NCBI RefSeq assembly: GCF_052324685.1
Contig: NW_027506919.1
Coordinates: 179,314-243,313 of the forward strand
Direction of reading: 5' to 3'
Origin: Brachyhypopomus gauderio
Taxonomy: Eukaryota; Chordata; Actinopteri; Gymnotiformes; Hypopomidae
DNA: 64,000 nucleotides
The notes below the pieces were generated by a model that had not been told where the DNA came from, did no database searches, and was given only the letters and a program-made list of their open reading frames with translations. Below, piece after piece: positions 3 through 64,000 of the stretch; positions within the stretch are counted from its first letter, which is position 1, and every line of letters starts with the position of its first letter. A program made the position numbers and the translations under genes.

Positions 3-76
3 GGCGCCGTGGCTTAGCTGGTCATAGCGCCTGTCTAGTAAACAGGAAGTCCTGGGTTCAAATTCCAGCAGTGCCT
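3..76 (+). tRNA. tRNA-Thr (AGT), first copy in window
   Basis: Complete cloverleaf with anticodon AGT at 37-39. Two departures from the reference copy: C61 is T (TTCAAATTCC), weakening the conserved G53-C61 pair to G-U, and the acceptor 3' strand is CAGTGCC, leaving C6 opposite A67. The C61T form recurs in over 20 units, usually paired with a D- and T-class Arg. Confidence 0.93.
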
Positions 77-156
77 TTCTATTATGTAAGCAGTTGTTAG
101 GTCATGACATTCAGCCTCATGCTGAAGAGCAACTGTCAAAACTTTAACACATACTG

Positions 157-246
157 GGCTCTGTGGAGCAATGGATAGCGCATTGGACTTCTAGACGCAG
201 GTGTGTGGCCATTCAAAGGTTGTGGGTTCGAGTACCACCAGAGTCG
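157..246 (+). tRNA. tRNA-Arg (TCT), D+T variant, first copy
   Basis: Full length with anticodon at 190-192 and intron at 194-210, followed by T6. It carries C11A (TGGAGCAATGG), which breaks a D-stem pair and departs from the A-box consensus, and C61A (GAGTACCAC), which breaks the G53-C61 pair and the end of the B box. About 23 units share both changes. Probably a weak or inactive gene, though it keeps the terminator and intron. Confidence 0.85.
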
Positions 247-319
247 TTTTTTCTTTGAAAACAACAAAATTCATCGCTCCTCACTAATGACACCAATGCA
301 CAGTAAAAAGCCATGGCGC

Positions 320-393
320 GGCGCCGTGGCTTAGCTGGTCATAGCGCCTGTCTAGTAAACAGGAAGTCCTGGGTTCAAATCCCAGCGGTGCCT
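320..393 (+). tRNA. tRNA-Thr (AGT), reference copy
   Basis: Reads ACU, and ACC if A34 is converted to inosine. The 74-base sequence folds as a cloverleaf: acceptor GGCGCCG with CGGTGCC (one G-U pair at 4:69), anticodon stem CCTGT/ACAGG around loop CTAGTAA, T stem CTGGG/CCCAG around TTCAAAT, discriminator T. Anticodon is at 354-356. The A box TGGCTTAGCTGG and B box GGTTCAAATCC fit Pol III consensus. No intron and no encoded CCA. Only T3 follows (start of a CCTTTCC-type run), so this gene lacks a strong terminator of its own. Sequence is close to vertebrate Thr-AGT genes (recalled, not searched). Confidence 0.96.
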
Positions 394-473
394 TTCCTTT
401 ATGTAGGCAGTTGTTAGGTCATGACATTCAGCCTCATGCTGAAGAGCAACTGTCAAAACTTTAACACATACTG
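394..473 (+). other. Thr-Arg intergenic linker with nested hairpin
   Basis: The 80-base linker is conserved throughout the array. It holds an outer 6-bp inverted repeat (CAGTTG 408-413 with CAACTG 447-452), an inner one (TTCAGC 427-432 with GCTGAA 438-443, loop CTCAT) and the palindrome GTCATGAC at 418-425. A second common form has TTTAGC with loop CTCCT, which keeps the inner stem through a U-G pair. No T4 run is present in this copy. Function unknown; it could guide processing of a dicistronic precursor or simply be hitchhiking DNA. Confidence 0.7.
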
Positions 474-563
474 GGCTCTGTGGCGCAATGGATAGCGCAT
501 TGGACTTCTAGACGCAGGTGTGTGGCCATTCAAAGGTTGTGGGTTCGAGTCCCACCAGAGTCG
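474..563 (+). tRNA. tRNA-Arg (TCT) with 17-base intron, reference copy
   Basis: Reads AGA (and AGG by wobble). Acceptor GGCTCTG pairs with CAGAGTC (G2-U71 wobble), D stem GCGC/GCGC, anticodon stem TTGGA/TTCAA, T stem GTGGG/CCCAC around TTCGAGT, discriminator G. Anticodon TCT is at 507-509, and the intron at 511-527 (GACGCAGGTGTGTGGCC) lies after position 37, the canonical nuclear site. The mature RNA is 73 bases. A box TGGCGCAATGG and B box GGTTCGAGTCC match consensus. Very close to the vertebrate intron-bearing Arg-TCT gene (recalled). It is followed at once by T6. This is the apparently intact form, shared by roughly one third of full-length Arg copies. Confidence 0.96.
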
Positions 564-569
564 TTTTTT
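564..569 (+). terminator. Pol III oligo-T terminator after tRNA-Arg
   Basis: T6 directly abuts the Arg discriminator base and is followed by CTTTGAAAAC. The same position holds T5 to T7 in nearly all full-length Arg units (T5 then G in the forms with TTTTTGC). It is the only run of four or more T in this unit. Confidence 0.9.
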
Positions 570-636
570 CTTTGAAAACAACAAAATTCATCGCTCCTCA
601 CTAATTACACCAATCCACAGTAAAAAGCCATGGCGT
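570..636 (+). other. Arg-to-Thr spacer
   Basis: With the T run this makes the 73 bases between Arg and the next Thr. It is AT-rich at its left (GAAAACAACAAAATTC), with an A-rich stretch GTAAAAAG about 20 bases before the next Thr and then CCATGG. The A-rich stretch sits where upstream Pol III elements can lie, but no clear TATA box is seen. Main variants: CAATCCAC or CAATGCAC; GTAAAAAG, GTAAACAG or GTCAAAAG; TAATGAC, TATTGAC or TAATTAC. Confidence 0.6.
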
Positions 637-1741
637 GGCGCCGTGGCTTAGCTGGTCATAGCGCCTGTCTAGTAAACAGGAAGTCCTGGGTTCAAATCCC
701 AGCGGTGCCTTTCTATTATGTAAGCAGTTGTTAGGTCATGACATTCAGCCTCATGCTGAAGAGCAACTGTCAAAACTTTAACACATACTGGGCTCTGTGG
801 AGCAATGGATAGCGCATTGGACTTCTAGACGCAGGTGTGTGGCCATTCAAAGGTTGTGGGTTCGAGTACCACCAGAGTCGTTTTTTCTTTGAAAACAACA
901 AAATTCATCGCTCCTCACTAATGACACCAATGCACAGTAAAAAGCCATGGCGCGGCGCCGTGGCTTAGCTGGTCATAGCGCCTGTCTAGTAAACAGGAAG
1001 TCCTGGGTTCAAATCCCAGCGGTGCCTTTCCTTTATGTAAGCAGTTGTTAGGTCATGACATTTAGCCTCCTGCTGAAGAGCAACTGTCAAAACTTTAACA
1101 CATACTGGGCTCTGTGGCGCAATGGATAGCGCATTGGACTTCTAGACGCAGGTGTGTGGCCATTCAAAGGTTGTGGGTTCGAGTACCACCAGAGTCGTTT
1201 TTTCTTTGAAAACAACAAAATTCATCGCTCCTCACTATTGACACCAATGCACAGTAAAAAGCCATGGCGCGGCGCCGTGGCTTAGCTTGTCATAGCGCCT
1301 GTCTAGTAAACAGGAAGTCCTGGGTTCAAATCCCAGCGGTGCCTTTCCTTTATGTAAGCAGTTGTTAGGTCATGACATTCAGCCTCATGCTGAAGAGCAA
1401 CTGTCAAAACTTTAACACAAACTGGGCTTTGTGGCGCAATGGATAGCGCATTGGACTTCTAGACGCAGGTGTGTGGCCATTCAAAGGTTGTGGGTTCGAG
1501 TCCCACCCGAGTCATTTTTTCTTTGAAAACAACAAAATTCATCGCTCCTCACTAATGACACCAATGCACAGTAAAAAGCCATGGCGTGGCGCCGTGGCTT
1601 AGCTGGTCATAGCGCCTGTCTAGTAAACAGGAAGTCCTGGGTTCAAATCCCAGCGGTGCCTTTCCTTTATGTAAGCAGTTGTTAGGTCATGACATTTAGC
1701 CTCCTGCTGAAGAGCAACTGTCAAAACTTTAACACATACTG

Positions 1742-1822
1742 GGCTCTGTGGCGCAATGGATAGCGCATTGGACTTCTAGACGCAGGTGTGTGGCCATTCA
1801 AAGGTTGTGGGTTCGAGTCCCA
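1742..1822 (+). pseudogene. tRNA-Arg, 3'-truncated
   Basis: Keeps bases 1-81 of 90 (through T-stem CCCA) and loses the 3' acceptor strand, oligo-T and most of the spacer. CCATGG at the join suggests deletion between CCA repeats in GTCCCACC and AAGCCATGG. The next Thr starts 7 bases on. Confidence 0.9.
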
Positions 1823-3884
1823 TGGCGCGGCTCCGTGGCTTAGCTGGTCATAGCGCCTGTCTAGTAAACAGGAAGTCCTGGGTTCAAATCCCAGCGGTGC
1901 CTTTCTATTATGTAAGCAGTTGTTAGGTCATGACATTCAGCCTCATGCTGAAGAGCAACTGTCAAAACTTTAACACATACTGGGCTCTGTGGCGCAATGG
2001 ATAGCGCATTGGACTTCTAGACGCAGGTGTGTGGCCATTCAAAGGTTGTGGGTTCGAGTCCCACCAGAGTCGTTTTTGCTTTGAAAACAACAAAATTCAT
2101 CGCTCCTCACTAATGACACCAATCCACAGTAAAAAGCCATGGCGTGGCGCCGTGGCTTAGCTGGTCATAGCGCCTGTCTAGTAAACAGGAAGTCCTGGGT
2201 TCAAATTCCAGCGGTGCCTTTCTATTATGTAAGCAGTTGTTAGGTCATGACATTCAGCCTCATGCTGAAGAGCAACTGTCAAAACTTTAACACATACTGG
2301 GCTCTGTGGAGCAATGGATAGCGCATTGGACTTCTAGACGCAGGTGTGTGGCCATTCAAAGGTTGTGGGTTCGAGTACCACCAGAGTCATTTTTTCTTTG
2401 AAAACAACAAAATTCATCGCTCCTCACTAATGACACCAATGCACAGTAAAAAGCCATGGCGCGGCGCCGTGGCTTAGCTGGTCATAGCGCCTGTCTAGTA
2501 AACAGGAAGTCCTGGGTTCAAATCCCAGCGGTGCCTTTCTATTATGTAAGCAGTTGTTAGGTCATGACATTCAGCCTCATGCTGAAGAGCAACTGTCAAA
2601 ACTTTAACACATACTGGGCTCTGTGGCGCAATGGATAGCGCATTGGACTTCTAGACGCAGGTGTGTGGCCATTCAAATGTTGTGGGTTTGAGTACCACCA
2701 GAGTCGTTTTTTCTTTGAAAACAACAAAATTCATCGCTCCTCACTAATGACACCAATCCACAGTAAAAAGCCATGGCGTGGTGCCGTGGCTTAGCTGGTC
2801 ATAGCGCCTGTCTAGTAAACAGGAAGTCCTGGGTTCAAATCCCAGCGGTGCCTTTCTATTATGTAAGCAGTTGTTAGGTCATGACATTCAGCCTCATGCT
2901 GAAGAGCAACTGTCAAAACTTTAACACATACTGGGCTCTGTGGCGCAATGGATAGCGCATTGGACTTCTAGACGCAGGTGTGTGGCCATTCAAAGGTTGT
3001 GGGTTCGAGTACCACCAGAGTCGTTTTTTCTTTGAAAACAACAAAATTCATCGCTCCTCACTAATGACACCAATGCACAGTAAAAAGCCATGGCGCGGCG
3101 CCGTGGCTTAGCTGGTCATAGCGCCTGTCTAGTAAACAGGAAGTCCTGGGTTCAAATCCCAGCGGTGCCTTTCCTTTATGTAAGCAGTTGTTAGGTCATG
3201 ACATTCAGCCTCATGCTGAAGAGCAACTGTCAAAACTTTAACACATACTGGGCTCTGTGGCGCAATGGATAGCGCATTGGACTTCTAGACGCAGGTGTGT
3301 GGCCATTCAAATGTTGTGGGTTTGAGTACCACCAGAGTCGTTTTTTCTTTGAAAACAACAAAATTCATCGCTCCTCACTAATGACACCAATCCACAGTAA
3401 AAAGCCATGGCGTGGTGCCGTGGCTTAGCTGGTCATAGCGCCTGTCTAGTAAACAGGAAGTCCTGGGTTCAAATCCCAGCGGTGCCTTTCTATTATGTAA
3501 GCAGTTGTTAGGTCATGACATTCAGCCTCATGCTGAAGAGCAACTGTCAAAACTTTAACACATACTGGGCTCTGTGGCGCAATGGATAGCGCATTGGACT
3601 TCTAGACGCAGGTGTGTGGCCATTCAAAGGTTGTGGGTTCGAGTCCCACCAGAGTCATTTTTTCTTTGAAAACAACAAAATTCATCGCTCCTCACTAATG
3701 ACACCAATCCACAGTAAAAAGCCATGGCGAGGCTCCGTGGCTTAGCTGGTCATAGCGCCTGTCTAGTAAACAGGAAGTCCTGGGTTCAAATCCCAGCGGT
3801 GCCTTTCTATTATGTAAGCAGTTGTTAGGTCATGACATTCAGCCTCATGCTGAAGAGCAACTGTCAAAATTTTAACACATACTG

Positions 3885-3963
3885 GGCTCTGTGGCGCAAT
3901 GGATAGCACATTGGACTTCTAGACGCAGGTGTGGCCATTCAAAGGTTGTGGGTTCGAGTCCCA
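3885..3963 (+). pseudogene. tRNA-Arg, 3'-truncated, 15-base intron
   Basis: Same deletion as at 1742; the intron has also lost one GT (GCAGGTGTGGCC) and the D stem reads GCAC. Confidence 0.9.
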
Positions 3964-4440
3964 TGGCGCGGCGCCATGGCTTAGCTGGTCATAGCGCCTG
4001 TCTAGTAAACAGGAAGTCCTGGGTTCAAATCCCAGCGGTGCCTTTCTATTATGTAAGCAGTTGTTAGGTCATGACATTCAGCCTCATGCTGAAGAGCAAC
4101 TGTCAAAACTTTAACACATACTGGGCTCTGTGGCGCAATGGATAGCGCATTGGACTTCTAGACGCAGGTGTGTGGCCATTCAAAGGTTGTGGGTTCGAGT
4201 CCCACCAGAGTCGTTTTTTCTTTGAAAACAACAAAATTCATCGCTCCTCACTAATGACACCAATCCACAGTAAACAGCCATGGCGTGGCGCCGTGGCTTA
4301 GCTGGTCATAGCGCCTGTCTAGTAAACAGGAAGTCCTGGGTTCAAATCCCAGCGGTGCCTTTCTATTATGTAAGCAGTTGTTAGGTCATGACATTCAGCC
4401 TCCTGCTGAAGAGCAACTGTCAAAACTTTAACACATACTG

Positions 4441-4521
4441 GGCTCTGTGGCGCAATGGATAGCGCATTAGACTTCTAGACGCAGGTGTGTGGCCATTCAA
4501 AGGTTGTGGGTTCGAGTCCCA
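4441..4521 (+). pseudogene. tRNA-Arg, 3'-truncated, G29A
   Basis: Same deletion; the anticodon stem has ATTAGAC. Followed by Thr of the GGCGCCA type. Confidence 0.9.
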
Positions 4522-7457: not shown

Positions 7458-7568
7458 GGCTCTGTGGAGCAATGGATAGCGCATTGGACTTCTAGACGCA
7501 GGTGTGTGTCCATTCAAAGGTTGTTGGTTCGAGGAAGGAAGTCCTGGGTTCAAATCCCAGCGGTGCCT
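7458..7568 (+). tRNA. Arg(TCT)/Thr fusion tRNA gene, copy 1
   Basis: The first 76 or so bases are tRNA-Arg (acceptor, D arm, anticodon TCT, intron, start of T arm to GGTTCGAG). The rest is the Thr variable loop, T arm and 3' acceptor. The join is AG/AG with GAAG doubled (GAGGAAGGAAGTCC). Acceptor strands GGCTCTG and CGGTGCC can pair except one U-U. The mature RNA would be 94 bases with a 26-base variable region. A box is the C11A form; B box comes from Thr and is intact. The intron has GTCC in place of GGCC, and the Arg part reads TTGTTGGTTC. No terminator before the next Arg. Confidence 0.85.
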
Positions 7569-22067: not shown

Positions 22068-25000
22068 TTCTATTATGTAAGCAGTTGTTAGGTCATGACA
22101 TTCAGCCTCATGCTGAAGAGCAACTGTCAAAACTTTAACACATACTGGGCTCTGTGGCGCAATGGATAGCGCATTGGACTTCTAGACGCAGGTGTGTGGC
22201 CATTCAAAGGTTGTGGGTTCGAGTCCCCCCAGAGTCGTTTTTTCTTTGAAAACAACAAAATTCATCGCTCCTCACTAATGACACCAATCCACAGTAAAAA
22301 GCCATGGCGTGGCGCCGTGGCTTAGCTGGTCATAGCGCCTGTCTAGTAAACAGGAAGTCCTGGGTTCAAATCCCAGCGGTGCCTTTCTATTATGTAAGCA
22401 GTTGTTAGGTCATGACATTCAGCCTCATGCTGAAGAGCAACTGTCAAAACTTTAACACATACTGGGCTCTGTGGTGCAATGGATAGCGCATTGGACTTCT
22501 AGACGCAGGTGTGTGGCCATTCAAAGGTTGTGGGTTCGAGTCCCACCAGAGTCATTTTTTCTTTGAAAACAACAAAATTCATCGCTCCTCACTAATGACA
22601 CCAATCCACAGTAAAAAGCCATGGCGTGGCGCCGTGGCTTAGCTGGTCATAGCGCCTGTCTAGTAAACAGGAAGTCCTGGGTTCAAATCCCAGCGGTGCC
22701 TTTCTATTATGTAAGCAGTTGTTAGGTCATGACATTCAGCCTCATGCTGAAGAGCAACTGTCAAAACTTTAACACATACTGGGCTCTGTGGCGCAATGGA
22801 TAGCGCATTGGACTTCTAGACGCAGGTGTGTGGCCATTCAAAGGTTGTGGGTTTGAGTCCCACCAGAGTCGTTTTTGCTTTGAAAACAACAAAATTCATC
22901 GCTCCTCACTAATGACACCAATCCACAGTAAAAAGCCATGGCGTGGCGCCGTGGCTTAGCTGGTCATAGCGCCTGTCTAGTAAACAGGAAGTCCTGGGTT
23001 CAAATTCCAGCGGTGCCTTTCTATTATGTAAGCAGTTGTTAGGTCATGACATTCAGCCTCATGCTGAAGAGCAACTGTCAAAACTTTAACACATACTGGG
23101 CTCTGTGGAGCAATGGATAGCGCATTGGACTTCTAGACGCAGGTGTGTGGCCATTCAAAGGTTGTGGGTTCGAGTACCACCAGAGTCGTTTTTTCTTTGA
23201 AAACAACAAAATTCATCGCTCCTCACTAATGACACCAATGCACAGTAAAAAGCCATGGCGCGGCGCCGTGGCTTAGCTGGTCATAGCGCCTGTCTAGTAA
23301 ACAGGAAGTCCTGGGTTCAAATCCCAGCGGTGCCTTTCCTTTATGTAAGCAGTTGTTAGGTCATGACATTCAGCCTCATGCTGAAGAGCAACTGTCAAAA
23401 CTTTAACACAAACTGGGCTTTGTGGCGCAATGGATAGCGCATTGGACTTCTAGACGCAGGTGTGTGGCCATTCAAAGGTTGTGGGTTCGAGTCCCACCCG
23501 AGTCATTTTTTTCTTTGAAAACAACAAAATTCATCGCTCCTCACTAATGACACCAATGCACAGTAAAAAGCCATGGCGTGGCACCGTGGCTTAGCTGGTC
23601 ATAGCGCCTATCTAGTAAACAGGAAGTCCTGGGTTCAAATCCCAGCGGTGCCTTTCTATTATGTAAGCAGTTGTTAGGTCATGACATTCAGCCTCCTGCT
23701 GAAGAGCAACTGTCAAAACTTAAACACATACTGGGCTCTGTGGCGCAATGGATAGCGCATTAGACTTCTAGACGCAGGCGTGTGGCCATTCAAAGGTTGT
23801 GGGTTCGAGTCCCATGGCGCGGCGCCATGGCTTAGCTGGTCATAGCGCCTGTCTAGTAAACAGGAAGTCCTGGGTTCAAATCCCAGCGGTGCCTTTCTAT
23901 TATGTAAGCAGTTGTTAGGTCATGACATTCAGCCTCATGCTGAAGAGCAACTGTCAAAACTTTAACACATACTGGGCTCTGTGGCGCAATGGATAGCGCA
24001 TTGGACTTCTAGACGCAGGTGTGTGGCCATTCAAAGGTTGTGGGTTCGAGTCCCCCCAGAGTCGTTTTTTCTTTGAAAACAACAAAATTCATCGCTCCTC
24101 ACTAATGACACCAATCCACAGTAAAAAGCCATGTCGTGGCGCCGTGGCTTAGCTGGTCATAGCGCCTGTCTAGTAAACAGGAAGTCCTGGGTTCAAATCC
24201 CAGCGGTGCCTTTCTATTATGTAAGCAGTTGTTAGGTCATGACATTCAGCCTCATGCTGAAGAGCAACTGTCAAAACTTTAACACATACTGGGCTCTGTG
24301 GTGCAATGGATAGCGCATTGGACTTCTAGACGCAGGTGTGTGGCCATTCAAAGGTTGTGGGTTCGAGTCCCACCAGAGTCGTTTTTTCTTTGAAAACAAC
24401 AAAATTCATCGCTCCTCACTAATGACACCAATCCACAGTAAAAAGCCATGGCGTGGCGCCGTGGCTTAGCTGGTCATAGCGCCTGTCTAGTAAACAGGAA
24501 GTCCTGGGTTCAAATCCCAGCGGTGCCTTTCTATTATGTAAGCAGTTGTTAGGTCATGACATTCAGCCTCATGCTGAAGAGCAACTGTCAAAACTTTAAC
24601 ACATACTGGGCTCTGTGGCGCAATGGATAGCGCATTGGACTTCTAGACGCAGGTGTGTGGCCATTCAAAGGTTGTGGGTTCGAGTCCCACCAGAGTCGTT
24701 TTTGCTTTGAAAACAACAAAATTCATCGCTCCTCACTAATGACACCAATCCACAGTAAAAAGCCATTGCGTGGCGCCGTGGCTTAGCTGGTCATAGCGCC
24801 TGTCTAGTAAACAGGAAGTCCTGGGTTCAAATCCCAGCGGTGCCTTTCCATTATGTAAGCAGTTGTTAGGTCATGACATTCAGCCTCATGCTGAAGAGCA
24901 ACTGTCAAAACTTTAACACATACTGGGCTCTGTGGCGCAATGGATAGCGCATTGGACTTCTAGACGCAGGTGTGTGGCCATTCAAAGGTTGTGGGTTCGA

Positions 25001-26037
25001 GTCCCACCAGAGTCATTTTTTCTTTGAAAACAACAAAATTCATCGCTCCTCACTAATGACACCAATGCACAGTAAAAAGCCATGGCGTGGCGTCGTGGCT
25101 TAGCTGGTCATAGCGCCTGTCTAGTAAACAGGAAGTCCTGGGTTCAAATCCCAGCGGTGCCTTTCCTTTATGTAAGCAGTTGTTAGGTCATGACATTTAG
25201 CCTCCTGCTGAAGAGCAACTGTCAAAACTTTAACACGTACTGGGCTCTGTGGCGCAATGGATAGCGCATTGGACTTCTAGACGCAGGTGTGTGGCCATTC
25301 AAAGGTTGTGGGCTTAAGTCCCACCAGAGTCATTTTTTCTTTGAAAACAACAAAATTCATCGCTCCTCACTAATGACACCAATGCACAGTCAAAAGCCAT
25401 GGCACGGCGCCGTGGCTTAGCTGGTCATAGCGCCTGTCTAGTAAACAGGAAGTCCTGGGTTCAAATCCCAGCGGTGCCTTTCTATTATGTAAGCAGTTGT
25501 TAGGTCATGACATTCAGCCTCATGCTGAAGAGCAACTGTCAAAATTTTAACACATACTGGGCTCTGTGGCGCAATGGATAGCACATTGGACTTCTAGACG
25601 CAGGTGTGGCCATTCAAAGGTTGTGGTTTCGAGTCCCCCCAGAGTCGTTTTTTCTTTGAAAACAACAAAATTCATCGCTCCTCACTAATGACACCAATCC
25701 ACAGTAAAAAGCCATGGCGTGGCGCCGTGGCTTAGCTGGTCATAGCGCCTGTCTAGTAAACAGGAAGTCCTGGGTTCAAATCCCAGCGGTGCCTTTCTAT
25801 TCTGTAAGCAGTTGTTAGGTCATGACATTCAGCCTCATGCTGAAGAGCAACTGTCAAAACTTTAACACATACTGGGCTCTGTGGCGCAATGGATAGCGCA
25901 TTGGACTTCTAGACGCAGGTGTGTGGCCATTCAAAGGTTGTGGGTTCGAGTCCCACCAGAGTCGTTTTTTCTTTGAAAACAACAAAATTCATCGCTCCTC
26001 ACTAATGACACCAATCCACAGTAAAAAGCCATTGCGT
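22068..26037 (+). tRNA. Block 7: 12 Thr/Arg units
   Basis: Solo Arg at 22148 (M). Thr starts with Arg code: 22311 ok, 22628 U, 22945 DT, 23262 Q, 23580 X, 23821 M, 24138 ok, 24455 ok, 24772 ok, 25089 K, 25406 M (15-base intron), 25721 ok. Thr 23580 is GGCACCG and has CCTAT in its anticodon stem, opposite ACAGG, so one pair is lost. Thr 25089 is GGCGTCG (U5-G68 wobble). The first K-class Arg of the window is here. Confidence 0.92.
23734..23814 (+). pseudogene. tRNA-Arg, 3'-truncated, G29A
   Basis: Same deletion; ATTAGAC, and an intron change (CAGGCGTG). Followed by a GGCGCCA Thr. Confidence 0.9.
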
Positions 26038-29000
26038 GGGGCCGTGGCTTAGCTGGTCATAGCGCCTGTCTAGTAAACAGGAAGTCCTGGGTTCAAATCC
26101 CAGCGGTGCCTTTCTATTATGTAAGCAGTTGTTAGGTCATGACATTCAGCCTCATGCTGAAGAGCAACTGTCAAAACTTTAACACATACTGGGCTCTGTG
26201 GTGCAATGGATAGCACATTGGACTTCTAGACGCAGGTGTGTGGCCATTCAAAGGTTGTGGGTTCGAGTCCCACCAGAGTCGTTTTTTCTTTGAAAACAAC
26301 AAAATTCATCGCTCCTCACTAATGACACCAATCCACAGTAAAAAGCCATGGCGTGGCGCCGTGGCTTAGCTGGTCATAGCGCCTGTCTAGTAAACAGGAA
26401 GTCCTGGGTTCAAATCCCAGCGGTGCCTTTCTATTATGTAAGCAGTTGTTAGGTCATGACATTCAGCCTCATGCTGAAGAGCAACTGTCAAAACTTTAAC
26501 ACATACTGGGCTCTGTGGCGCAATGGATAGCGCATTGGACTTCTAGACGCAGGTGTGTGGCCATTCAAAGGTTGTGGGTTCGAGTCCCACCAGAGTCGTT
26601 TTTTCTTTGAAAACAACCAAATTCATCGCTCCTCACTAATGACACCAATCCACAGTAAAAAGCCATTGCGTGGCGCCGTGGCTTAGCTGGTCATAGCGCC
26701 TGTCTAGTAAACAGGAAGTCCTGGGTTCAAATCCCAGCGGTGCCTTTCCATTATGTAAGCAGTTGTTGGGTCATGACATTCAGCCTCATGCTGAAGAGCA
26801 ACTGTCAAAACTTTAACACATTCTGGGCTCTGTGGCGCAATGGATAGCGCATTGGACTTCTAGACGCAGGTGTGTGGCCATTCAAAGGTTGTGGGTTCGA
26901 GTCCCACCAGAGTCGTTTTTGCTTTGAAAACAACAAAATTCATCGCTCCTCACTAATGACACCAATCCACAGTAAAAAGCCATTGCGTGGCGCCGTGGCT
27001 TAGCTGGTCATAGCGCCTGTCTAGTAAACAGGAAGTCCTGGGTTCAAATCCCAGCGGTGCCTTTCCATTATGTAAGCAGTTGTTAGGTCATGACATTCAG
27101 CCTCATGCTGAAGAGCAACTGTCAAAACTTTAACACATACTGGGCTCTGTGGCGCAATGGATAGCGCATTGGACTTCTAGACGCAGGTGTGTGGCCATTC
27201 AAAGGTTGTGGGCTTAAGTCCCACCAGAGTCATTTTTTTCTTTGAAAACAACAAAATTCATCGCTCCTCACTAATGACACCAATGCACAGTCAAAAGCCA
27301 TGGCGCGGCGCCGTGGCTTAGCTGGTCATAGCGCCTGTCTAGTAAACAGGAAGTCCTGGGTTCAAATCCCAGCGGTGCCTTTCCTTTATGTAAGCAGTTT
27401 TTAGGTCATGACATTTAGCCTCCTGCTGAAGAGCAACTGTCAAAACTTTAACACATACTGGGCTCTGTGGCGCAATGGATAGCGCATTGGACTTCTAGAC
27501 GCAGGTGTGTGGCCATTCAAAGGTTGTGGGTTCGAGTCCCACCAGAGTCGTTTTTTCTTTGAAAACAACAAAATTCATCGCTCCTCACTAATGACACCAA
27601 TCCACAGTAAAAAGCCATTGCGTGGCGCCGTGGCTTAGCTGGTCATAGCGCCTGTCTAGTAAACAGGAAGTCCTGGGTTCAAATCCCAGCGGTGCCTTTC
27701 CATTATGTAAGCAGTTGTTAGGTCATGACATTCAGCCTCATGCTGAAGAGCAACTGTCAAAACTTTAACACATACTGGGCTCTGTGGCGCAATGGATAGC
27801 GCATTGGACTTCTAGACGCAGGTGTGTGGCCATTCAAAGGTTGTGGGCTTAAGTCCCACCAGAGTCATTTTTTTCTTTGAAAACAACAAAATTCATCGCT
27901 CCTCACTAATGACACCAATGCACAGTCAAAAGCCATGGCGCGGCGCCGTGGCTTAGCTGGTCATAGCGCCTGTCTAGTAAACAGGAAGTCCTGGGTTCAA
28001 ATCCCAGCGGTGCCTTTCCTTTATGTAAGCAGTTTTTAGGTCATGACATTTAGCCTCCTGCTGAAGAGCAACTGTCAAAACTTTAACACATACTGGGCTC
28101 TGTGGCGCAATGGATAGCGCATTGGACTTCTAGACGCAGGTGTGTGGCCATTCAAAGGTTGTGGGTTCGAGTCCCACCAGAGTCGTTTTTTCTTTGAAAA
28201 CAACAAAATTCATCGCTCCTCACTAATGACACCAATCCACAGTAAAAAGCCATGGCGTGGCGCCGTGGCTTAGCTGGTCATAGCGCCTGTCTAGTAAACA
28301 GGAAGTCCTGGGTTCAAATCCCAGCGGTGCCTTTCTATTATGTAAGCAGTTGTTAGGTCATGACATTCAGCCTCATGCTGAAGAGCAACTGTCAAAACTT
28401 TAACACATACTGGGCTCTGTGGCGCAATGGATAGCGCATTGGACTTCTAGACGCAGGTGAGTGGCCATTCAAAGGTTGTGGGTTCGAGTCCCACCAGAGT
28501 CGTTTTTTCTTTGAAAACAACCAAATTCATCGCTCCTCACTAATGACACCAATCCACAGTAAAAAGCCATTGCGTGGCGCCGTGGCTTAGCTGGTCATAG
28601 CGCCTGTCTAGTAAACAGGAAGTCCTGGGTTCAAATCCCAGCGGTGCCTTTCCATTATGTAAGCAGTTGTTGGGTCATGACATTCAGCCTCATGCTGAAG
28701 AGCAACTGTCAAAACTTTAACACATTCTGGGCTCTGTGGCGCAATGGATAGCGCATTGGACTTCTAGACGCAGGTGTGTGGCCATTCAAAGGTTGTGGGT
28801 TCGAGTCCCACCAGAGTCGTTTTTGCTTTGAAAACAACAAAATTCATCGCTCCTCACTAATGACACCAATCCACAGTAAAAAGCCATTGCGTGGCGCCGT
28901 GGCTTAGCTGGTCATAGCGCCTGTCTAGTAAACAGGAAGTCCTGGGTTCAAATCCCAGCGGTGCCTTTCCATTATGTAAGCAGTTGTTAGGTCATGACAT

Positions 29001-31430
29001 TCAGCCTCATGCTGAAGAGCAACTGTCAAAACTTTAACACATACTGGGCTCTGTGGCGCAATGGATAGCGCATTGGACTTCTAGACGCAGGTGTGTGGCC
29101 ATTCAAAGGTTGTGGGCTTAAGTCCCACCAGAGTCATTTTTTTCTTTGAAAACAACAAAATTCATCGCTCCTCACTAATGACACCAATGCACAGTCAAAA
29201 GCCATGGCGCGGCGCCGTGGCTTAGCTGGTCATAGCGCCTGTCTAGTAAACAGGAAGTCCTGGGTTCAAATCCCAGCGGTGCCTTTCCTTTATGTAAGCA
29301 GTTTTTAGGTCATGACATTTAGCCTCCTGCTGAAGAGCAACTGTCAAAACTTTAACACATACTGGGCTCTGTGGCGCAATGGATAGCGCATTGGACTTCT
29401 AGACGCAGGTGTGTGGCCATTCAAAGGTTGTGGGTTCGAGTCCCACCAGAGTCGTTTTTTCTTTGAAAACAACAAAATTCATCGCTCCTCACTAATGACA
29501 CCAATCCACAGTAAAAAGCCATTGCGTGGCGCCGTGGCTTAGCTGGTCATAGCGCCTGTCTAGTAAACAGGAAGTCCTGGGTTCAAATCCCAGCGGTGCC
29601 TTTCCATTATGTAAGCAGTTGTTAGGTCATGACATTCAGCCTCATGCTGAAGAGCAACTGTCAAAACTTTAACACATACTGGGCTCTGTGGCGCAATGGA
29701 TAGCGCATTGGACTTCTAGACGCAGGTGTGTGGCCATTCAAAGGTTGTGGGCTTAAGTCCCACCAGAGTCATTTTTTTCTTTGAAAACAACAAAATTCAT
29801 CGCTCCTCACTAATGACACCAATGCACAGTCAAAAGCCATGGCGCGGCGCCGTGGCTTAGCTGGTCATAGCGCCTGTCTAGTAAACAGGAAGTCCTGGGT
29901 TCAAATCCCAGCGGTGCCTTTCCTTTATGTAAGCAGTTTTTAGGTCATGACATTTAGCCTCCTGCTGAAGAGCAACTGTCAAAACTTTAACACATACTGG
30001 GCTCTGTGGCGCAATGGATAGCGCATTGGACTTCTAGACGCAGGTGTGTGGCCATTCAAAGGTTGTGGGTTCGAGTCCCACCAGAGTCGTTTTTTCTTTG
30101 AAAACAACAAAATTCATCGCTCCTCACTAATGACACCAATGCACAGTCAAAAGCCATGGCACGGCGCCGTGGCTTAGCTGGTCATAGCGCCTGTCTAGTA
30201 AACAGGAAGTCCTGGGTTCAAATCCCAGCGGTGCCTTTCTATTATGTAAGCAGTTGTTAGGTTATGACATTCAGCCTCATGCTGAAGAGCAACTGTCAAA
30301 ACTTTAACACATACTGGGCTCTGTGGCGCAATGGATAGCGCATTGGACTTCTAGACGCAGGTGTGTGGCCATTCAAAGGTTGTGGGTTCGAGTCCCACCA
30401 GAGTCGTTTTTTCTTTGAAAACAACAAAATTCATCGCTCCTCACTAATGACACCAATCCACAGTAAAAAGCCATTGCGTGGCGCCGTGGCTTAGCTGGTC
30501 ATAGCGCCTGTCTAGTAAACAGGAAGTCCTGGGTTCAAATCCCAGCGGTGCCTTTCTATTATGTAAGCAGTTGTTAGGTCATGACATTCAGCCTCATGCT
30601 GAAGAGCAACTGTCAAAACTTTAACACATACTGGGCTCTGTGGTGCAATGGATAGCACATTGGACTTCTAGACGCAGGTGTGTGGCCATTCAAAGGTTGT
30701 GGGTTCGAGTCCCACCAGAGTCGTTTTTTCTTTGAAAACAACAAAATTCATCGCTCCTCACTAATGACACCAATCCACAGTAAAAAGCCATGGCGTGGCG
30801 CCGTGGCTTAGCTGGTCATAGCGCCTGTCTAGTAAACAGGAAGTCCTGGGTTCAAATCCCAGCGGTGCCTTTCTATTATGTAAGCAGTTGTTAGGTCATG
30901 ACATTCAGCCTCATGCTGAAGAGCAACTGTCAAAACTTTAACACATACTGGGCTCTGTGGCGCAATGGATAGCGCATTGGACTTCTAGACGCAGGTGTGT
31001 GGCCATTCAAAGGTTGTGGGTTCGAGTCCCACCAGAGTCGTTTTTTCTTTGAAAACAACAAAATTCATCGCTCCTCACTAATGACACCAATCCACAGTAA
31101 AAAGCCATTGCGTGGCGCCGTGGCTTAGCTGGTCATAGCGCCTGTCTAGTAAACAGGAAGTCCTGGGTTCAAATCCCAGCGGTGCCTTTCCATTATGTAA
31201 GCAGTTGTTGGGTCATGACATTCAGCCTCATGCTGAAGAGCAACTGTCAAAACTTTAACACATTCTGGGCTCTGTGGCGCAATGGATAGCGCATTGGACT
31301 TCTAGACGCAGGTGTGTGGCCATTCAAAGGTTGTGGGTTCGAGTCCCACCAGAGTCGTTTTTGCTTTGAAAACAACAAAATTCATCGCTCCTCACTAATG
31401 ACACCAATCCACAGTAAAAAGCCATTGCGT
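26038..31430 (+). tRNA. Block 8: 17 Thr/Arg units, ok/K alternation
   Basis: Thr starts with Arg code: 26038 ok, 26355 ok, 26672 ok, 26989 K, 27307 ok, 27624 K, 27942 ok, 28259 ok, 28576 ok, 28893 K, 29211 ok, 29528 K, 29846 ok, 30163 ok, 30480 ok, 30797 ok, 31114 ok. The longest stretch rich in intact Arg genes; none carries C61A, and no X or F unit occurs. T5 lies in the linkers of 27307, 27942, 29211 and 29846. Thr 26038 starts GGGGCCG (C3G). K-class units here carry T7 terminators and are 318 bp. Confidence 0.93.
26672..30162 (+). repeat. 1,904-bp tandem duplication with ok/K units
   Basis: The five units 26672-28258 (ok, K, ok, K, ok) recur at 28576-30162 at an offset of 1,904 bp, sharing CACATTCTGG in the first linker and T5 in two linkers. 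Within each copy an ok/K pair is itself doubled (635-bp step). The units at 26038, 26355 and 26672 also match those at 30480, 30797 and 31114 (4,442 bp). Confidence 0.8.
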
Positions 31431-32535
31431 GGCGCCGTGGCTTAGCTGGTCATAGCGCCTGTCTAGTAAACAGGAAGTCCTGGGTTCAAATCCCAGCGGT
31501 GCCTTTCCTTTATGTAGGCAGTTGTTAGGTCATGACATTCAGCCTCATGCTGAAGAGCAACTGTCAAAACTTTAACACATACTGGGCTCTGTGGCGCAAT
31601 GGATAGCGCATTGGACTTCTAGACGCAGGTGTGTGGCCATTCAAAGGTTGTGGGTTCGAGTCCCACCAGAGTCGTTTTTTCTTTGAAAACAACAAAATTC
31701 ATCGCTCCTCACTAATTACACCAATCCACAGTAAAAAGCCATGGCGTGGCGCCGTGGCTTAGCTGGTCATAGCGCCTGTCTAGTAAACAGGAAGTCCTGG
31801 GTTCAAATTCCAGCGGTGCCTTTCTATTATGTAAGCAGTTGTTAGGTCATGACATTCAGCCTCATGCTGAAGAGCAACTGTCAAAACTTTAACACATACT
31901 GGGCTCTGTGGCGCAATGGATAGCGCATTGGACTTCTAGACGCAGGTGTGTGGCCATTCAAAGGTTGTGGGTTCGAGTCCCACCAGAGTCGTTTTTTCTT
32001 TGAAAACAACAAAATTCATCGCTCCTCACTAATGACACCAATGCACAGTAAAAAGCCATGGCGCGGCGCCGTGGCTTAGCTGGTCATAGCGCCTGTCTAG
32101 TAAACAGGAAGTCCTGGGTTCAAATCCCAGCGGTGCCTTTCCTTTATGTAAGCAGTTGTTAGGTCATGACATTTAGCCTCCTGCTGAAGAGCAACTGTCA
32201 AAACTTTAACACATACTGGGCTCTGTGGCGCAATGGATAGCGCATTGGACTTCTAGATGCAGGTGTGTGGCCATTCAAAGGTTGTGGGTTCGAGTCCCAC
32301 CCGAGTCATTTTTTCTTTGAAAACAACAAAATTCATCACTCCTCACTAATGACACCAATGCACAGTAAAAAGCCATGGCGCGGCGCCGTGGCTTAGCTGG
32401 TCATAGCGCCTGTCTAGTAAACAGGAAGTCCTGGGTTCAAATCCCAGCGGTGCCTTTCCTTTATGTAAGCAGTTGTTAGGTCATGACATTTAGCCTCCTG
32501 CTGAAGAGCAACTGTCAAAACTTTAACACATACTG

Positions 32536-32616
32536 GGCTCCGTGGCGCAATGGATAGCGCATTGGACTTCTAGACGCAGGTGTGTGGCTATTCAAAGGTT
32601 GTGGGTTCGAGTCCCA
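32536..32616 (+). pseudogene. tRNA-Arg, 3'-truncated
   Basis: Same deletion; acceptor starts GGCTCCG and the intron end reads GGCT. Confidence 0.9.
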
Positions 32617-59068: not shown

Positions 59069-59101
59069 GGCGCCGTGGCTTAGCTGGTCATAGCGCCTGT
59101 C
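59069..59101 (+). pseudogene. tRNA-Thr, 5' fragment
   Basis: Third copy of the same deletion, 3,977 bp on; Arg follows at 59155. Confidence 0.9.
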
Positions 59102-60105: not shown

Positions 60106-60186
60106 GGCTCTGTGGCGCAATGGATAGCGCATTAGACTTCTAGACGCAGGTGTGTGGCCATTCAAAGGTTGTGGGTTCGAGTCCCA
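60106..60186 (+). pseudogene. tRNA-Arg, 3'-truncated, G29A
   Basis: Counterpart of 56129 at 3,977 bp; the following Thr is GGCGCCA rather than GGTGCCA. Confidence 0.9.
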
Positions 60187-61612
60187 TGGCGCGGCGCCAT
60201 GGCTTAGCTGGTCATAGTGCCTGTCTAGTAAACAGGAAGTCCTGGGTTCAAATCCCAGCGGTTCCTTTCTATTATGTAAGCAGTTGTTAGGTCATGACAT
60301 TCAGCCTCATGCTGAAGAGCAACTGTCAAAACTTTAACACATACTGGGCTCTGTGGCGCAATGGATAGCGCATTGGACTTCTAGACGCAGGTGTGTGGCC
60401 ATTCAAAGGTTGTGGGTTCGAGTCCCACCAGAGTCATTTTTTCTTTGAAAACAACAAAATTCATCGCTCCTCACTAATGACACCAATCCACAGTAAAAAG
60501 TCATGGCGCGGCGTCGCGGCTTAGCTGGTCATAGCGCCTGTCTAGTAAACAGGAAGTCCTGGGTTCAAATCCCAGCGGTGCCTTTCCTTTATGTAAGCAG
60601 TTGTTAGGTCATGACATTTAGCCTCCTGCTGAAGAGCAACTGTCAAAACTTTAACACATACTGGGCTCTGTGGCGCAATGGATAGCGCATTGGACTTCTA
60701 GACGCAGGTGTGTGGCCATTCAAAGGTTGTGGGCTTAAGTCCCACCAGAGTCATTTTTTCTTTGAAAACAACAAAATTCATCGCTCCTCACTAATGACAC
60801 CAATGCACAGTCAAAAGCCATGGCGCGGCGCCATGGCTTAGCTGGTCATAGCGCCTGTCTAGTAAACAGGAAGTCCTGGGTTCAAATCCCAGCGGTGCCT
60901 TTCTATTATGTAAGCAGTTGTTAGGTCATGACATTCAGCCTCATGCTGAAGAGCAACTGTCAAAATTTTAACACATACTGGGCTCTGTGGCGCAATGGAT
61001 AGCACATTGGACTTCTAGACGCAGGTGTGGCCATTCAAAGGTTGTGGGTTCGAGTCCCCCCAGAGTCGTTTTTTCTTTGAAAACAACAAAATTCATCGCT
61101 CCTCACTAATGACACCAATCCACAGTAAAAAGCCATGGCGTGGCGCCGTGGCTTAGCTGGTCATATCGCCTGTCTAGTAAAGAGGAAGTCCTGGGTTCAA
61201 ATCCCAGCGGTGCCTTTCCATTATGTAAGCAGTTGTTAGGTCATGACATTCAGCCTCATGCTGAAGAGCAACTGTCAAAACTTTAACACATACTGGGCTC
61301 TGTGACGCAATGGATAGCGCATTGGACTTCTAGACGCAGGTGTGTGGCCATTCAAAGGTTGTGGGTTCGAGTCCCACCAGAGTCATTTTTTCTTTGAAAA
61401 CAACAAAATTCATCGCTCCTCACTAATGACACCAATGCACAGTAAAAAGCCATGGCGCGGCGTCGTGGCTTAGCTGGTCATAGCGCCTGTCTAGTAAACA
61501 GGAAGTCCTGGGTTCAAATCCCAGCGGTGCCTTTCCTTTATGTAAGCAGTTGTTAGGTCATGACATTTAGCCTCCTGCTGAAGAGCAACTGTCAAAACTT
61601 TAACACATACTG

Positions 61613-61723
61613 GGCTCTGTGGCGCAATGGATAGCGCATTGGACTTCTAGACGCAGGTGTGTGGCCATTCAAAGGTTGTGGGTTCGAGGAAGGAAGTCCT
61701 GGGTTCAAATCCCAGCGGTGCCT
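61613..61723 (+). tRNA. Arg/Thr fusion tRNA gene, copy 9
   Basis: The only fusion whose Arg part has the normal A box and D stem (GCGC rather than GAGC), so it looks the fittest of the nine. It is preceded by the TTTAGC form of the linker. It lies 240 bp before the strand switch and is followed by GTAACCAG and a good Arg at 61804. Confidence 0.85.
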
Positions 61724-61949
61724 TTCTATTATGTAACCAGTTGTTAGGTCATGACATTCAGCCTCATGCTGAAGAGCAACTGTCAAAACTTTAACACATA
61801 CTGGGCTCTGTGGCGCAATGGATAGCGCATTGGACTTCTAGACGCAGGTGTGTGGCCATTCAAAGGTTGTGGGTTCGAGTCCCACCAGAGTCGTTTTTGC
61901 TTTGAAAACAACAAAATTCATCGCTCCTCACTAATGACACCAATCCACA

Positions 61950-61970
61950 GTAAAAAGCCATTTGAACCGC
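61950..61970. other. Strand-switch junction between convergent arrays
   Basis: The + strand spacer runs normally to AAAAAGCCAT (about 61961) and then meets the inverted Thr gene at ACCGCTGGG. The few bases TTGA at the join fit neither side, though TTTGAACC also occurs 14 bases further on inside the inverted Thr, so slippage or short templated insertion is possible. The inverted Thr has lost about five bases of its 3' acceptor strand. Confidence 0.85.
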
Positions 61971-62035
61971 TGGGATTTGAACCCAGGACTTCCTGTTTAC
62001 TAGACAGGCGCTATGACCAGCTAAGCCACGGCGCC
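61966..62035 (-). pseudogene. tRNA-Thr (AGT), 3' end cut by the strand switch
   Basis: Acceptor 5' strand, D arm, anticodon arm and T arm are normal, but the 3' acceptor strand ends at about CGGT and then runs into TTCAAATGG-type sequence, so the acceptor stem cannot close. Confidence 0.85.
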
Positions 62036-62041
62036 GCGCCA

Positions 62042-62122
62042 TGGGACTCGAACCCACAACCTTTGAATGGCCACACACCTGCGTCTAGAAGTCTAATGCG
62101 CTATCCATTGCGCCACAGAGCC
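62042..62122 (-). pseudogene. tRNA-Arg, 3'-truncated, G29A
   Basis: Same CCATGG join and ATTAGAC mark as the truncated copies on the + strand; shows that the inverted segment came from this array after the deletion arose. Confidence 0.9.
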
Positions 62123-62202
62123 CAGTATGTGTTAAAGTTTTGACAGTTGCTCTTCAGCAGGAGGCTAAATGTCATGACCTAACAACTGCTTACATAAAGG
62201 AA

Positions 62203-62276
62203 AGGCACTGCTGGGATTTGAACCCAGGACTTCCTGTATACTAGACAGGCGCTATGACCAGCTAAGCCACGGCGCC
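62203..62276 (-). tRNA. tRNA-Thr (AGT)
   Basis: Full length. The anticodon loop has A38T (CTAGTATACAGG) and the acceptor has CAGTGCC (C6 opposite A67), so probably weakened. Confidence 0.88.
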
Positions 62277-62349
62277 GCGCCATGGCTTTTTACTGTGCAT
62301 TGGTGTCATTAGTGAGGAGCAATGAATTTTGTTGTTTTCAAAGAAAAAA

Positions 62350-62439
62350 TGACTCGGGTGGGACTCGAACCCACAACCTTTGAATGGCCACACACCTGCG
62401 TCTAGAAGTCCAATGCGCTATCCATTGCGCCACAGAGCC
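62350..62439 (-). tRNA. tRNA-Arg (TCT), Q variant
   Basis: Full length with 17-base intron; acceptor GGCTCTG against CCGAGTC leaves U6 opposite C67. Discriminator A, then T6. Confidence 0.88.
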
Positions 62440-62519
62440 CAGTATGTGTTAAAGTTTTGACAGTTGCTCTTCAGCAGGAGGCTAAATGTCATGCCCTAAC
62501 AACTGCTTACATAAAGGAA

Positions 62520-62593
62520 AGGCACCGCTGGGATTTGAACCCAGGACTTCCTGTTTACTAGACAGGCGCTATGATCAGCTAAGCCACGGCGCC
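62520..62593 (-). tRNA. tRNA-Thr (AGT)
   Basis: Full length; one D-loop change (AGCTGATCAT). Its linker reads GGGCATGAC in place of GGTCATGAC, breaking the linker palindrome. Confidence 0.92.
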
Positions 62594-62666
62594 ACGCCAT
62601 GGCTGTTTACTGTGGATTGGTGTCATTAGTGAGGAGCGATGAATTTTGTTGTTTTCAAAGAAAAAA

Positions 62667-62756
62667 CGACTCTGGTGGGACTCGAACCCACAACCTTTGA
62701 ATGGCCACACACCAGCGTCTAGAAGTCCAATGCACTATCCATTGCGCCACAGAGCA
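62667..62756 (-). tRNA. tRNA-Arg (TCT), G1T
   Basis: T arm is normal. Base 1 is T (TGCTCTG), losing the G1-C72 pair. D stem reads GTGC on its 3' side, and the intron has GCTGG for GCAGG. Ends with discriminator G and T6. Confidence 0.86.
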
Positions 62757-62836
62757 CAGTATGTGTTAAAGTTTTGACAGTTGCTCTTCAGCATGAGGCT
62801 GAATGTCATGACCTAACAACTGCTTACATAATAGAA

Positions 62837-62910
62837 AGGCACCGCTGGGATTTGAACTCAGGACTTCCTGTTTACTAGACAGGCGCTATGACCAGCTAAG
62901 CCACGGCGCC
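62837..62910 (-). tRNA. tRNA-Thr (AGT)
   Basis: Full length; T stem CTGAG against CCCAG has one mismatch (G52A), and B box reads AGTTCAAATCC. Confidence 0.88.
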
Positions 62911-62983
62911 ACGCCATGGCTTGTTACTGTGGATTGGTGTCATTAGTGAGGAGCGATGAATTTTGTTGTTTTCAAAGAAAAAA

Positions 62984-63073
62984 CGACTCTGGGGGGACTC
63001 GAACCCACAACCTTTGAATGGCCACACACCTGCGTCTAGAAGTCCAATGCGCTATCCATTGCGCCACAGAGCA
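62984..63073 (-). tRNA. tRNA-Arg (TCT), G1T and M variant
   Basis: Base 1 is T as in the next gene downstream (62667-62756), and the T-stem 3' strand is CCCCC. Two stem defects, so probably inactive. Confidence 0.85.
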
Positions 63074-63153
63074 CAGTATGTGTTAAAGTTTTGACAGTTG
63101 CTCTTCAGCAGGAGGCTAAATGTCATGACCTAACAACTGCTTACATAAAGGAA

Positions 63154-63227
63154 AGGCACCGCTGGTATTTGAACCCAAGACTTCCTGTTTACTAGACAGG
63201 CGCTATGACCAGCTAAGCCACGGCGCC
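63154..63227 (-). tRNA. tRNA-Thr (AGT), T-stem defects
   Basis: Full length but T stem TTGGG against ACCAG has lost G53-C61 and weakened 49-65; B box ends ATACC. Likely poor. Confidence 0.86.
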
Positions 63228-63300
63228 GCGCCATGGCTTTTTACTGTGCATTGGTGTCATTAGTGAGGAGCGATGAATTTTGTTGTTTTCAAAGAAAAAA

Positions 63301-63390
63301 CAACTCTGGTGGGACTCGAACCCACAACCTTTGAATGGCCACACACCTGCATCTAGAAGTCCAATGCGCTATCCATTGCGCCACAGAGCC
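63301..63390 (-). tRNA. tRNA-Arg (TCT)
   Basis: T arm normal; acceptor end CAGAGTT gives a G1-U72 pair; intron begins GATGC. T6 follows. Confidence 0.9.
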
Positions 63391-63470
63391 CAGTATGTGT
63401 TAAAGTTTTGACAGTTGCTCTTCAGCATGAGGCTGAATGTCATGACCTAACAACTGCTTACATAATAGAA

Positions 63471-63544
63471 AGGCACCGCTGGGATTTGAACCCAGGACTT
63501 CCTGTTTACTAGACAGGCGATATGACCAGCTAAGCCACGGCGCC
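63471..63544 (-). tRNA. tRNA-Thr (AGT)
   Basis: Full length; one change near the D stem (CATATCGCC), as in Thr 61142. The rest matches the reference copy. Confidence 0.92.
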
Positions 63545-63617
63545 ACGCCATGGCTTTTTACTGTGGATTGGTGTCATTAGTGAGGAGCGATGAATTTTGT
63601 TGTTTTCAAAGAAAAAA

Positions 63618-63707
63618 CGACTCTGGTGGGACTCGAACCCACAACCTTTGAATGGCCACACACCTGCATCTAGAAGTCCAATGCGCTATCCATTGCGCCA
63701 CAGAGCC
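63618..63707 (-). tRNA. tRNA-Arg (TCT)
   Basis: Intact-looking full-length copy with intron start GATGC, discriminator G and T6. Confidence 0.93.
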
Positions 63708-63787
63708 CAGTATGTGTTAAAGTTTTGACAGTTGCTCTTCAGCAGGAGGCTAAATGTCATGACCTAACAACTGCTTACATAAAGGAA

Positions 63788-63861
63788 AGGCACTGCTGGG
63801 ACTTGAACCCAGGACTTCCTGTTTACTAGACAGGCGCTATGACCAGCTAAGCCACGGCGCC
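63788..63861 (-). tRNA. tRNA-Thr (AGT)
   Basis: Full length; T loop TTCAAGT and acceptor CAGTGCC (C6 opposite A67). Confidence 0.9.
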
Positions 63862-63934
63862 ACGCCATGGCTTTTTACTGTGGATTGGTGTCATTAGTGA
63901 GGAGCGATGAATTTTGTTGTTTTCAAAGAAAAAA

Positions 63935-64000
63935 CGACTCTGGTGGGACTCGAACCCACAACCTTTGAATGGCCACACACCTGCGTCTAGAAGTCCAATG
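63935..64000 (-). tRNA. tRNA-Arg (TCT), partial at window edge
   Basis: The 3' 66 bases of an intact-looking Arg copy (anticodon, intron, T arm, acceptor 3' strand). The 5' end lies beyond the window. Confidence 0.92.

Follow-up and report, generated by a model that had tools for sequence, protein, structure and literature searches.

Background

Vertebrate tRNA gene arrays are already known, for example in zebrafish, and the locus analyzed here is a further case. It is a tandem array of a cassette of two transfer RNA (tRNA) genes, Thr(AGT) and Arg(TCT), in Brachyhypopomus gauderio. The window, i.e., the whole stretch of DNA that was analyzed, comprises 64,000 nucleotides of contig NW_027506919.1 (assembly GCF_052324685.1, positions 179,314 to 243,313 of the forward strand). 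In zebrafish, Arg-Thr is one of three pairs of tRNA genes (tDNA) named as the most frequent, and the same source has a figure of clustered Arg(TCT) and Thr(AGT or TGT) genes with interspersed TCT pseudogenes, the species being unstated in the accompanying text (Bermudez-Santana et al. 2010, PMC2888827). The isodecoders found in zebrafish eggs lie in highly repetitive regions and those found later are isolated, with Thr-AGT/TGT/CGT as a named example of this switch (PMC11417395). According to Rappol et al. (2024), the selective expression of different tRNAs is yet to be clarified, and genomic context is speculated to contribute to it (PMC11417395). The tRNA genes of zebrafish chromosome 4 have been proposed to be maternal (PMC11075544), and for Xenopus, oocyte-specific tandem tRNA genes that become active at zygotic genome activation have been described (PMC11500080). 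Are giant vertebrate tRNA arrays egg tRNA factories or inert satellites? The present locus makes this question testable, and its two assembled haplotypes show how such an array gets rearranged.

A tandem array of a Thr-Arg cassette

The whole window is a tandem array of a 317-bp cassette, made of a tRNA-Thr(AGT) gene (74 bp), an 80-bp spacer, an intron-bearing tRNA-Arg(TCT) gene (90 bp, with 17 nt of intron following base 37), and a second spacer, of 73 bp. A preliminary description of the window had proposed that this cassette runs throughout, which is borne out by the unit spacing, blastn, ARAGORN, and the Rfam tRNA model. We judged the reality of the genes with ARAGORN and with Infernal and the Rfam model (RF00005), and their copy number by the second allele, on another contig (see below). 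Counting partial stretches, blastn identified 212 Thr-like and 212 Arg-like sequences, in each case 205 on the plus and 7 on the minus strand. ARAGORN called 366 genes when introns were allowed (200 Thr(AGT), 164 Arg(TCT), and 2 odd "Pyl") and 321 in its bacterial mode. The Rfam model was applied, within the window, to the first 4000 bases, where it gave 25 matches at or above threshold, with scores of up to 66.4 bits for Thr and 60 bits for Arg.

The genes alternate in parallel, and in the sequence that we read the orientation switches only at block junctions. One such junction was read near position 61,961, where the array turns around, leaving the last 2 kb of the window inverted. The commonest distance between successive Thr starts is 317 bp, and deletion units recur with lengths of about 241, 236, 249, and 191 bp. 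In the 241-bp unit, the 3' end of the Arg gene, its terminator, and most of the second spacer are gone. The earlier estimate of around 200 Thr and 200 Arg genes stands for the number of copies, but many of the Arg copies are damaged or truncated. Likewise, the window contains nothing but the array, as had been claimed, but the array is not uniform, given its deletion units and its inverted end. The blocks and representative elements, in positions of the window, are the following:

3 to 61,961, plus strand: array block of Thr-spacer-Arg-spacer cassettes, mostly of 317 bp (unit spacing, blastn, ARAGORN)
61,962 to 64,000, minus strand: start of an inverted array block that extends on to 358.87 kb of the contig (junction read)
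320 to 393, plus strand: example of tRNA-Thr(AGT), identical to the array consensus, as are 113 of the 200 Thr genes of the window (66.4 bits)
394 to 473, plus strand: Thr-Arg spacer of 80 bp, in this copy without a TTTT run (sequence)
474 to 563, plus strand: example of tRNA-Arg(TCT), with its 17-nt intron at 511 to 527 (Rfam model, ARAGORN)
564 to 636, plus strand: Arg-Thr spacer of 73 bp, opening with a T6 terminator of RNA polymerase III (Pol III) at 564 to 569 (sequence)
1588 to 1828, plus strand: example of a 241-bp deletion unit (Arg remnant joined to the next Thr)
7458 to 7568, plus strand: example of a 191-type fusion, Arg bases 1 to 76 followed by Thr bases 42 to 74 (unit spacing)
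23,821 to 32,616, plus strand: regular 317-bp units with mostly intact genes (unit spacing, gene state)

One locus on two haplotypes

The array runs past the window on both sides. On the contig of the window (958,944 bp, hereafter C75) it extends from about 75,840 to 358,866, i.e., over 283 kb, in three orientation blocks, the first (minus) ending at 89.55 kb, the second (plus) at 241.27 kb, and the third (minus) at the array edge. We read 179,327 of these 283,027 bases, and all the parts read within the limits are array. In the bases read, ARAGORN called 551 Thr(AGT), 461 Arg(TCT), and 20 other or odd genes; by linear extrapolation, a haplotype would have some 870 Thr and 730 Arg genes.

A second contig, of 33.8 Mb (C7), bears the array near its start; there the array begins at about 14.4 kb and ends somewhere within 285.7-290.0 kb (271-276 kb in all). 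The interval C7:9,001-15,100 matches the right flank of C75 with 99.25% identity over 4158 bp, C7:300,001-300,355 matches the left flank with 99.2%, and two more left-flank probes match with 97.2% and 98.9%. With flanks that are 97-99% identical, we rejected the view of the C7 array as a second, independent array and take it for the other allele. Judging by the strand of the deletion junctions, the C7 array changes orientation within 173.7-177.0 kb and again within 272.7-274.6 kb. Hence, the inversions lie at other distances than on C75 from the array edge next to the gene matching U2SURP (see below).

Pattern searches of the genome (796.5 Mb in 840 contigs) agree with this. One form of the junction of the 241-bp deletion unit occurs in 122 copies genome-wide (81 + 41; control 0). 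Among the matches listed, 69 are on C7 and 31 on C75; the 22 unlisted ones are matched in number by 22 copies that the C75 sequence read contains past the final listed position. All 122 copies are thus on C7 and C75, which confines the junction to one locus. The C7 array has no copy of it in its first 88 kb, and the last block of C75 has a single one, beside the orientation junction, which fits allelism. A 40-base cassette pattern gave 1213 exact matches (756 + 457; control 0), the first 100 places being all on C7. The array is a single locus on two haplotypes, of similar size (283 vs 271-276 kb) and with inversions placed differently.

Could the assembler have inflated a short array? Two probes inside the C7 array (C7:180,001-180,700 and 190,001-190,700) are all N, which speaks for such an artefact; they may be gaps, although the array pattern is matched exactly in between, at 183-185 kb. 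We nevertheless regard this explanation as very improbable. The two contigs bear the array with differing internal order, similar total size, and flanks that are 97-99% alike on both sides, and the window is without any N, its units bearing many distinct variants.

Within the array, an insertion of about 540 bp was seen in a spacer at around 261.3 kb of C75 (L010:8266-8803). It has TGTAG...CTACA ends and a TGTGG target duplication, and resembles a solo long terminal repeat.

State of the gene copies

We counted a gene as fully intact when it keeps all consensus stem pairs, the A box, and the B box; the C75 counts are without double counting. In the window, this is the case for 134 of the 200 Thr genes. 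The 208 Arg genes include 32 truncated or chimeric ones, and among the remaining 176 we counted 54 as fully intact. The most frequent Arg damage is C61A, which affects both T stem and B box (64 genes). Between 24 and 32 kb of the window, stems and B box are kept in 23 of 25 Thr and 19 of 24 Arg genes.

The C75 copies read comprise 553 Thr genes, 324 of them fully intact, and 565 Arg genes, of which 176 are. The figures by block are 14/28 Thr and 10/29 Arg in the left one, 237/352 and 87/368 in the central one, and 73/173 and 79/168 in the right, inverted one. We therefore rejected a decay of Arg with intact Thr along the whole array, since Arg fares worse than Thr in the central block alone. 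Of the 553 Thr genes, 486 keep the B box, as do 369 of the 565 Arg genes. As raw counts, the anticodon is unchanged in 552 of 553 Thr and in all 565 Arg genes.

Terminators and a possible dicistronic reading

Most cassettes have one canonical Pol III terminator. To describe the units column by column, we used 424 full-length ones from the window and ten further loci (507 Thr 5' ends gave 495 units, of which 71 shorter or longer ones were excluded). The Arg gene is followed by a run of at least five T in 422 of them (T6 in 390, T5 in 30, T10 in 2) and by none in 2; TTTT occurs in the Thr-Arg spacer of 30. In the window, 12 of the 200 Thr genes have TTTT in the next 75 nt, and 177 of the 208 Arg genes have it in the next 25 nt. 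Among the C75 copies read, TTTT follows at no more than 25 nt in 33 Thr genes (of 553) and 501 Arg genes (of 565). Vertebrate Pol III stops at four T. In yeast, the minimal terminator is five T, with fairly efficient termination at six (PMC9278858). As Arg usually has T6 and Thr usually has no terminator, Thr is predicted to read through into Arg: at the sequence level, most Thr-Arg pairs are without a canonical terminator between them, as in a dicistronic gene.

We looked for signs of RNA structure as well. A hairpin of the Thr-Arg spacer as a conserved structure is unsupported (z of -0.98 and -0.55 for variants of the spacer), and neither the second spacer (z 0.75) nor the whole Thr-Arg transcript (z -0.81) has notable structure. 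Among the titles and abstract openings at the top of the literature listings, none concerned a dicistronic Thr-Arg gene or a pure array of the Thr-Arg cassette as large as this one, which is weak evidence for their absence.

The full version of this reading, from the sequence, is that the cassette would be a dicistronic Pol III unit, running from Thr-AGT into Arg-TCT with one T6, present in many hundreds of copies per haplotype and making a germline-specific Thr isodecoder. We regard it as rather unlikely in this complete form. If it were true, the terminator-less deletion units would yield longer, polycistronic tRNA precursors. The central block, with its excess of intact Thr over intact Arg genes, would then be becoming a Thr factory; the right block is without sign of such a change.

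Isolated counterparts of the array genes

Outside the array, we searched for Thr-AGT with a 40-base stretch of the canonical vertebrate gene, allowing up to two mismatches; this pattern would miss array-type Thr genes elsewhere and genes with more than two mismatches. It gave one match, which is exact and corresponds to a single gene on another contig (C19:11,034,029; 69.5 bits), with TTTT about 20 bases downstream. This gene has six differences from the array consensus, one of which falls on the T-T mismatch in the D stem of the array gene.

For Arg-TCT, we used an exact pattern with an intron beginning with G followed by C, G, or T, which would miss intronless genes, other intron starts, and any mismatch. 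Of the six matches, three are variants of the array gene on C7 and the other three are isolated genes. Two of the latter, on contig C1, have a 19-nt intron and C-G in place of T-A at pair 6:67; the third, on C19, has a 17-nt intron different from that of the array and, once spliced, the sequence of the array consensus. Hence, a split between array and isolated isodecoders is present for Thr and is mixed for Arg, where two genes differ and one is identical. Since the array Thr has six differences and the array Arg intron is unlike those of the three isolated genes, sequencing of tRNAs and their precursors can separate the products of the array from those of the isolated genes.

The two C1 genes, at 32.562 and 32.647 Mb, are 85 kb apart in opposite orientation, and their introns are nearly identical. 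On C19, the isolated Arg-TCT and Thr-AGT genes lie at 10.930 and 11.034 Mb, about 104 kb apart; this region, with both isolated genes, is a possible source of the cassette.

Possible roles: supply of the egg or silent satellite

The preliminary description had offered three roles for the array: satellite, chromatin boundary, and oocyte supply. It made no mention of the damaged copies, the inverted end, the lack of a terminator after Thr, or the single locus with its two haplotypes and isolated genes. Oocyte supply seems to have the best support from outside, namely the published zebrafish work, and we give about an even chance to the array supplying the germline or the egg with tRNA. Under this proposal, a single-locus array of about 280 kb would be kept, and reshuffled in the manner of a satellite by unequal exchange, deletion, and inversion. 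It would provide the germline or egg with Arg-TCT and an array-specific Thr-AGT isodecoder, both in large amounts, and the few isolated genes would serve somatic cells. The Thr transcript would run into Arg, and the resulting dicistronic precursor would be cut by the usual tRNA-processing enzymes. Both the transcription of the array and its timing are what we infer here. In favor of this proposal are the similar size of the array on the two haplotypes, its confinement to one locus, the split between array and isolated genes for Thr, the frequency of Arg-Thr pairs in zebrafish, the intact copies and unchanged anticodons on C75, and the T6 or T5 after Arg in 420 of 424 full units.

A serious rival is that the array is a silent satellite. 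Unequal exchange would have amplified the cassette and drift would have kept it, in a methylated and untranscribed state, with the isolated genes doing the work. We consider it somewhat less probable than a supply of the egg or germline. Variants per site, in the 424 units, are no lower in the genes (0.65 in Thr, 0.64 in Arg) than in the spacers (0.38 in both), which favors the silent satellite. When restricted to non-CpG sites, the values are 0.52 for Thr, 0.57 for the Arg exons, 0.40 for the Arg intron, and 0.38 and 0.35 for the spacers. The presence of isolated Thr-AGT and Arg-TCT genes also favors the silent satellite, and so do the re-amplification of truncated units, the limited number of fully intact genes on C75, and signs of recent local copying, a 2-kb stretch being repeated at 100% identity 36.6 kb away. 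On the other hand, over half of the Thr genes read are fully intact, nearly all anticodons are unchanged, and common variants (diversity above 0.1) are fewer in Thr (3 of 74 sites) than in the spacers (6 of 80 and 4 of 73), and indeed than in all other parts. Further, zebrafish isodecoders from repetitive regions do occur in eggs (PMC11417395), and concerted evolution can mask selection on the whole array.

Several results weigh against a supply of the egg. CpG sites have an excess of variants, which is expected of methylated, perhaps silent DNA. Damaging variants are not depleted, neither in Thr (30 of 48 vs 26.3 expected) nor in Arg (31 of 50 vs 27.7 expected). Both results also favor the silent satellite. 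To these must be added the few intact Arg genes of the window, the low share of intact Thr genes in the right block of C75, and the D-stem T-T mismatch, which belongs to the array consensus of Thr itself. The mature sequence of the isolated Arg gene on C19 equals the array consensus, so that the split between array and isolated genes fails in part for Arg. The same gene has no TTTT in the next 34 bases, whereas the two C1 genes have one; the absence of T4 thus need not mean read-through, and non-canonical stops may operate here. In zebrafish, the share of Thr-AGT rises late, at 10 and 24 hours post fertilization (PMC11417395), which is the wrong direction for a Thr-AGT of the egg. Finally, the 60.7 kb of flank that were searched gave no Rfam match (e.g., 5S rRNA or small nuclear RNA), and a maternal gene neighborhood like that of zebrafish chromosome 4 is thus unsupported.

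Irrespective of its role, the locus is a long tandem array, homogenized, with local higher-order repeats, as satellites are. The name of tRNA satellite, given to it in the preliminary description, suits its tandem units, local higher-order blocks, re-amplified deletion units, and undepleted damaging variants. There is no sign of purifying selection on single copies in the damaging variants of either gene, which suggests that these copies evolve like a satellite. We read this as turnover in the manner of a satellite, any selection on single copies being weak, and possibly with selection on the whole array.

Flanking sequences and the boundary explanation

To the right of the array, from 363.1 kb of C75, we identified exons matching U2SURP (PDB 9r8v chain SR, E-values of 9e-27 and 1e-22), with the RRM domain above the cut-off and the CID below it. 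The gene is about 4.3 kb from the array edge. The match supports an animal genome, and the Arg-Thr pairing and the genome size would point to a fish. A candidate first exon in flank stretch L030 had no match, and the claim is limited to the exons in stretch L014.

The proximity of this gene would suit a third explanation, in which the array is a chromatin boundary or an element of nuclear architecture whose many TFIIIC sites part domains. There is a precedent in the human tRNA tandem repeat at 1q23.3, a proposed CTCF boundary, although the description of that repeat makes it unlike the present unit (PMC4041453). A few sites should suffice for a boundary, and many B boxes of the array are mutated. 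We consider this explanation improbable, if less so than an assembly artefact.

About 0.8 kb outside the array edge, both haplotypes have a relic of an Arg gene (L030:935-1022 and L032:4555-4642), 73.9% like the array Arg, which may mark a former edge of the array. ARAGORN called no tRNA on stretch L030, where one of its copies lies. A fragment of a reverse transcriptase (Pfam RVT_1, E-value of 5.2e-15) was found at 666 kb of C75 (L016:3032-3535).

Comparison with known systems

In Xenopus laevis, the tDNA repeat unit is about 3.2 kb long and contains eight tRNA genes; the unit here has 317 bp and two genes. Yeast dimeric tRNA genes consist of two tRNA genes with one terminator and spacers of about 10 bases; the cassette resembles them in its two genes and one terminator and differs in its 80-bp spacer, its co-transcription being predicted. 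The Arabidopsis Ser-Tyr-Tyr tDNA cluster is much smaller than the present array. It is likewise a tandem tRNA cassette, described as mostly silent and reactivated in certain cells, but it is of a plant and concerns other amino acids (PMC12308677). The human variable number tandem repeat at 1q23.3 is also a tandem tRNA repeat of variable copy number, but has a GC-rich unit of 7.3 kb, in which tRNA genes make up less than 6%, and a CTCF site (PMC4041453). With the arrays of Xenopus, as they are described in relation to zygotic genome activation, the locus shares being a vertebrate tandem array of Pol III tRNA genes (PMC11500080).

Two further comparisons concern zebrafish. As in the account of the zebrafish egg isodecoders, there are many repeated genes of one Thr isodecoder beside an isolated, different one; here, in contrast, one isolated Arg gene has the mature sequence of the array (PMC11417395). 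The Arg-Thr tDNA clusters have both isoacceptors adjacent and in parallel in large clusters, with neighbors less than 1000 nt apart, and the spacers of 80 and 73 bp of the present cassette are well within this distance (PMC2888827). The likeness considered here is that of gene content, and the clusters in that source have fifty and more members (PMC2888827). The present locus differs from them in being a pure array of 283 kb, built of one 317-bp cassette at one locus in three orientation blocks.

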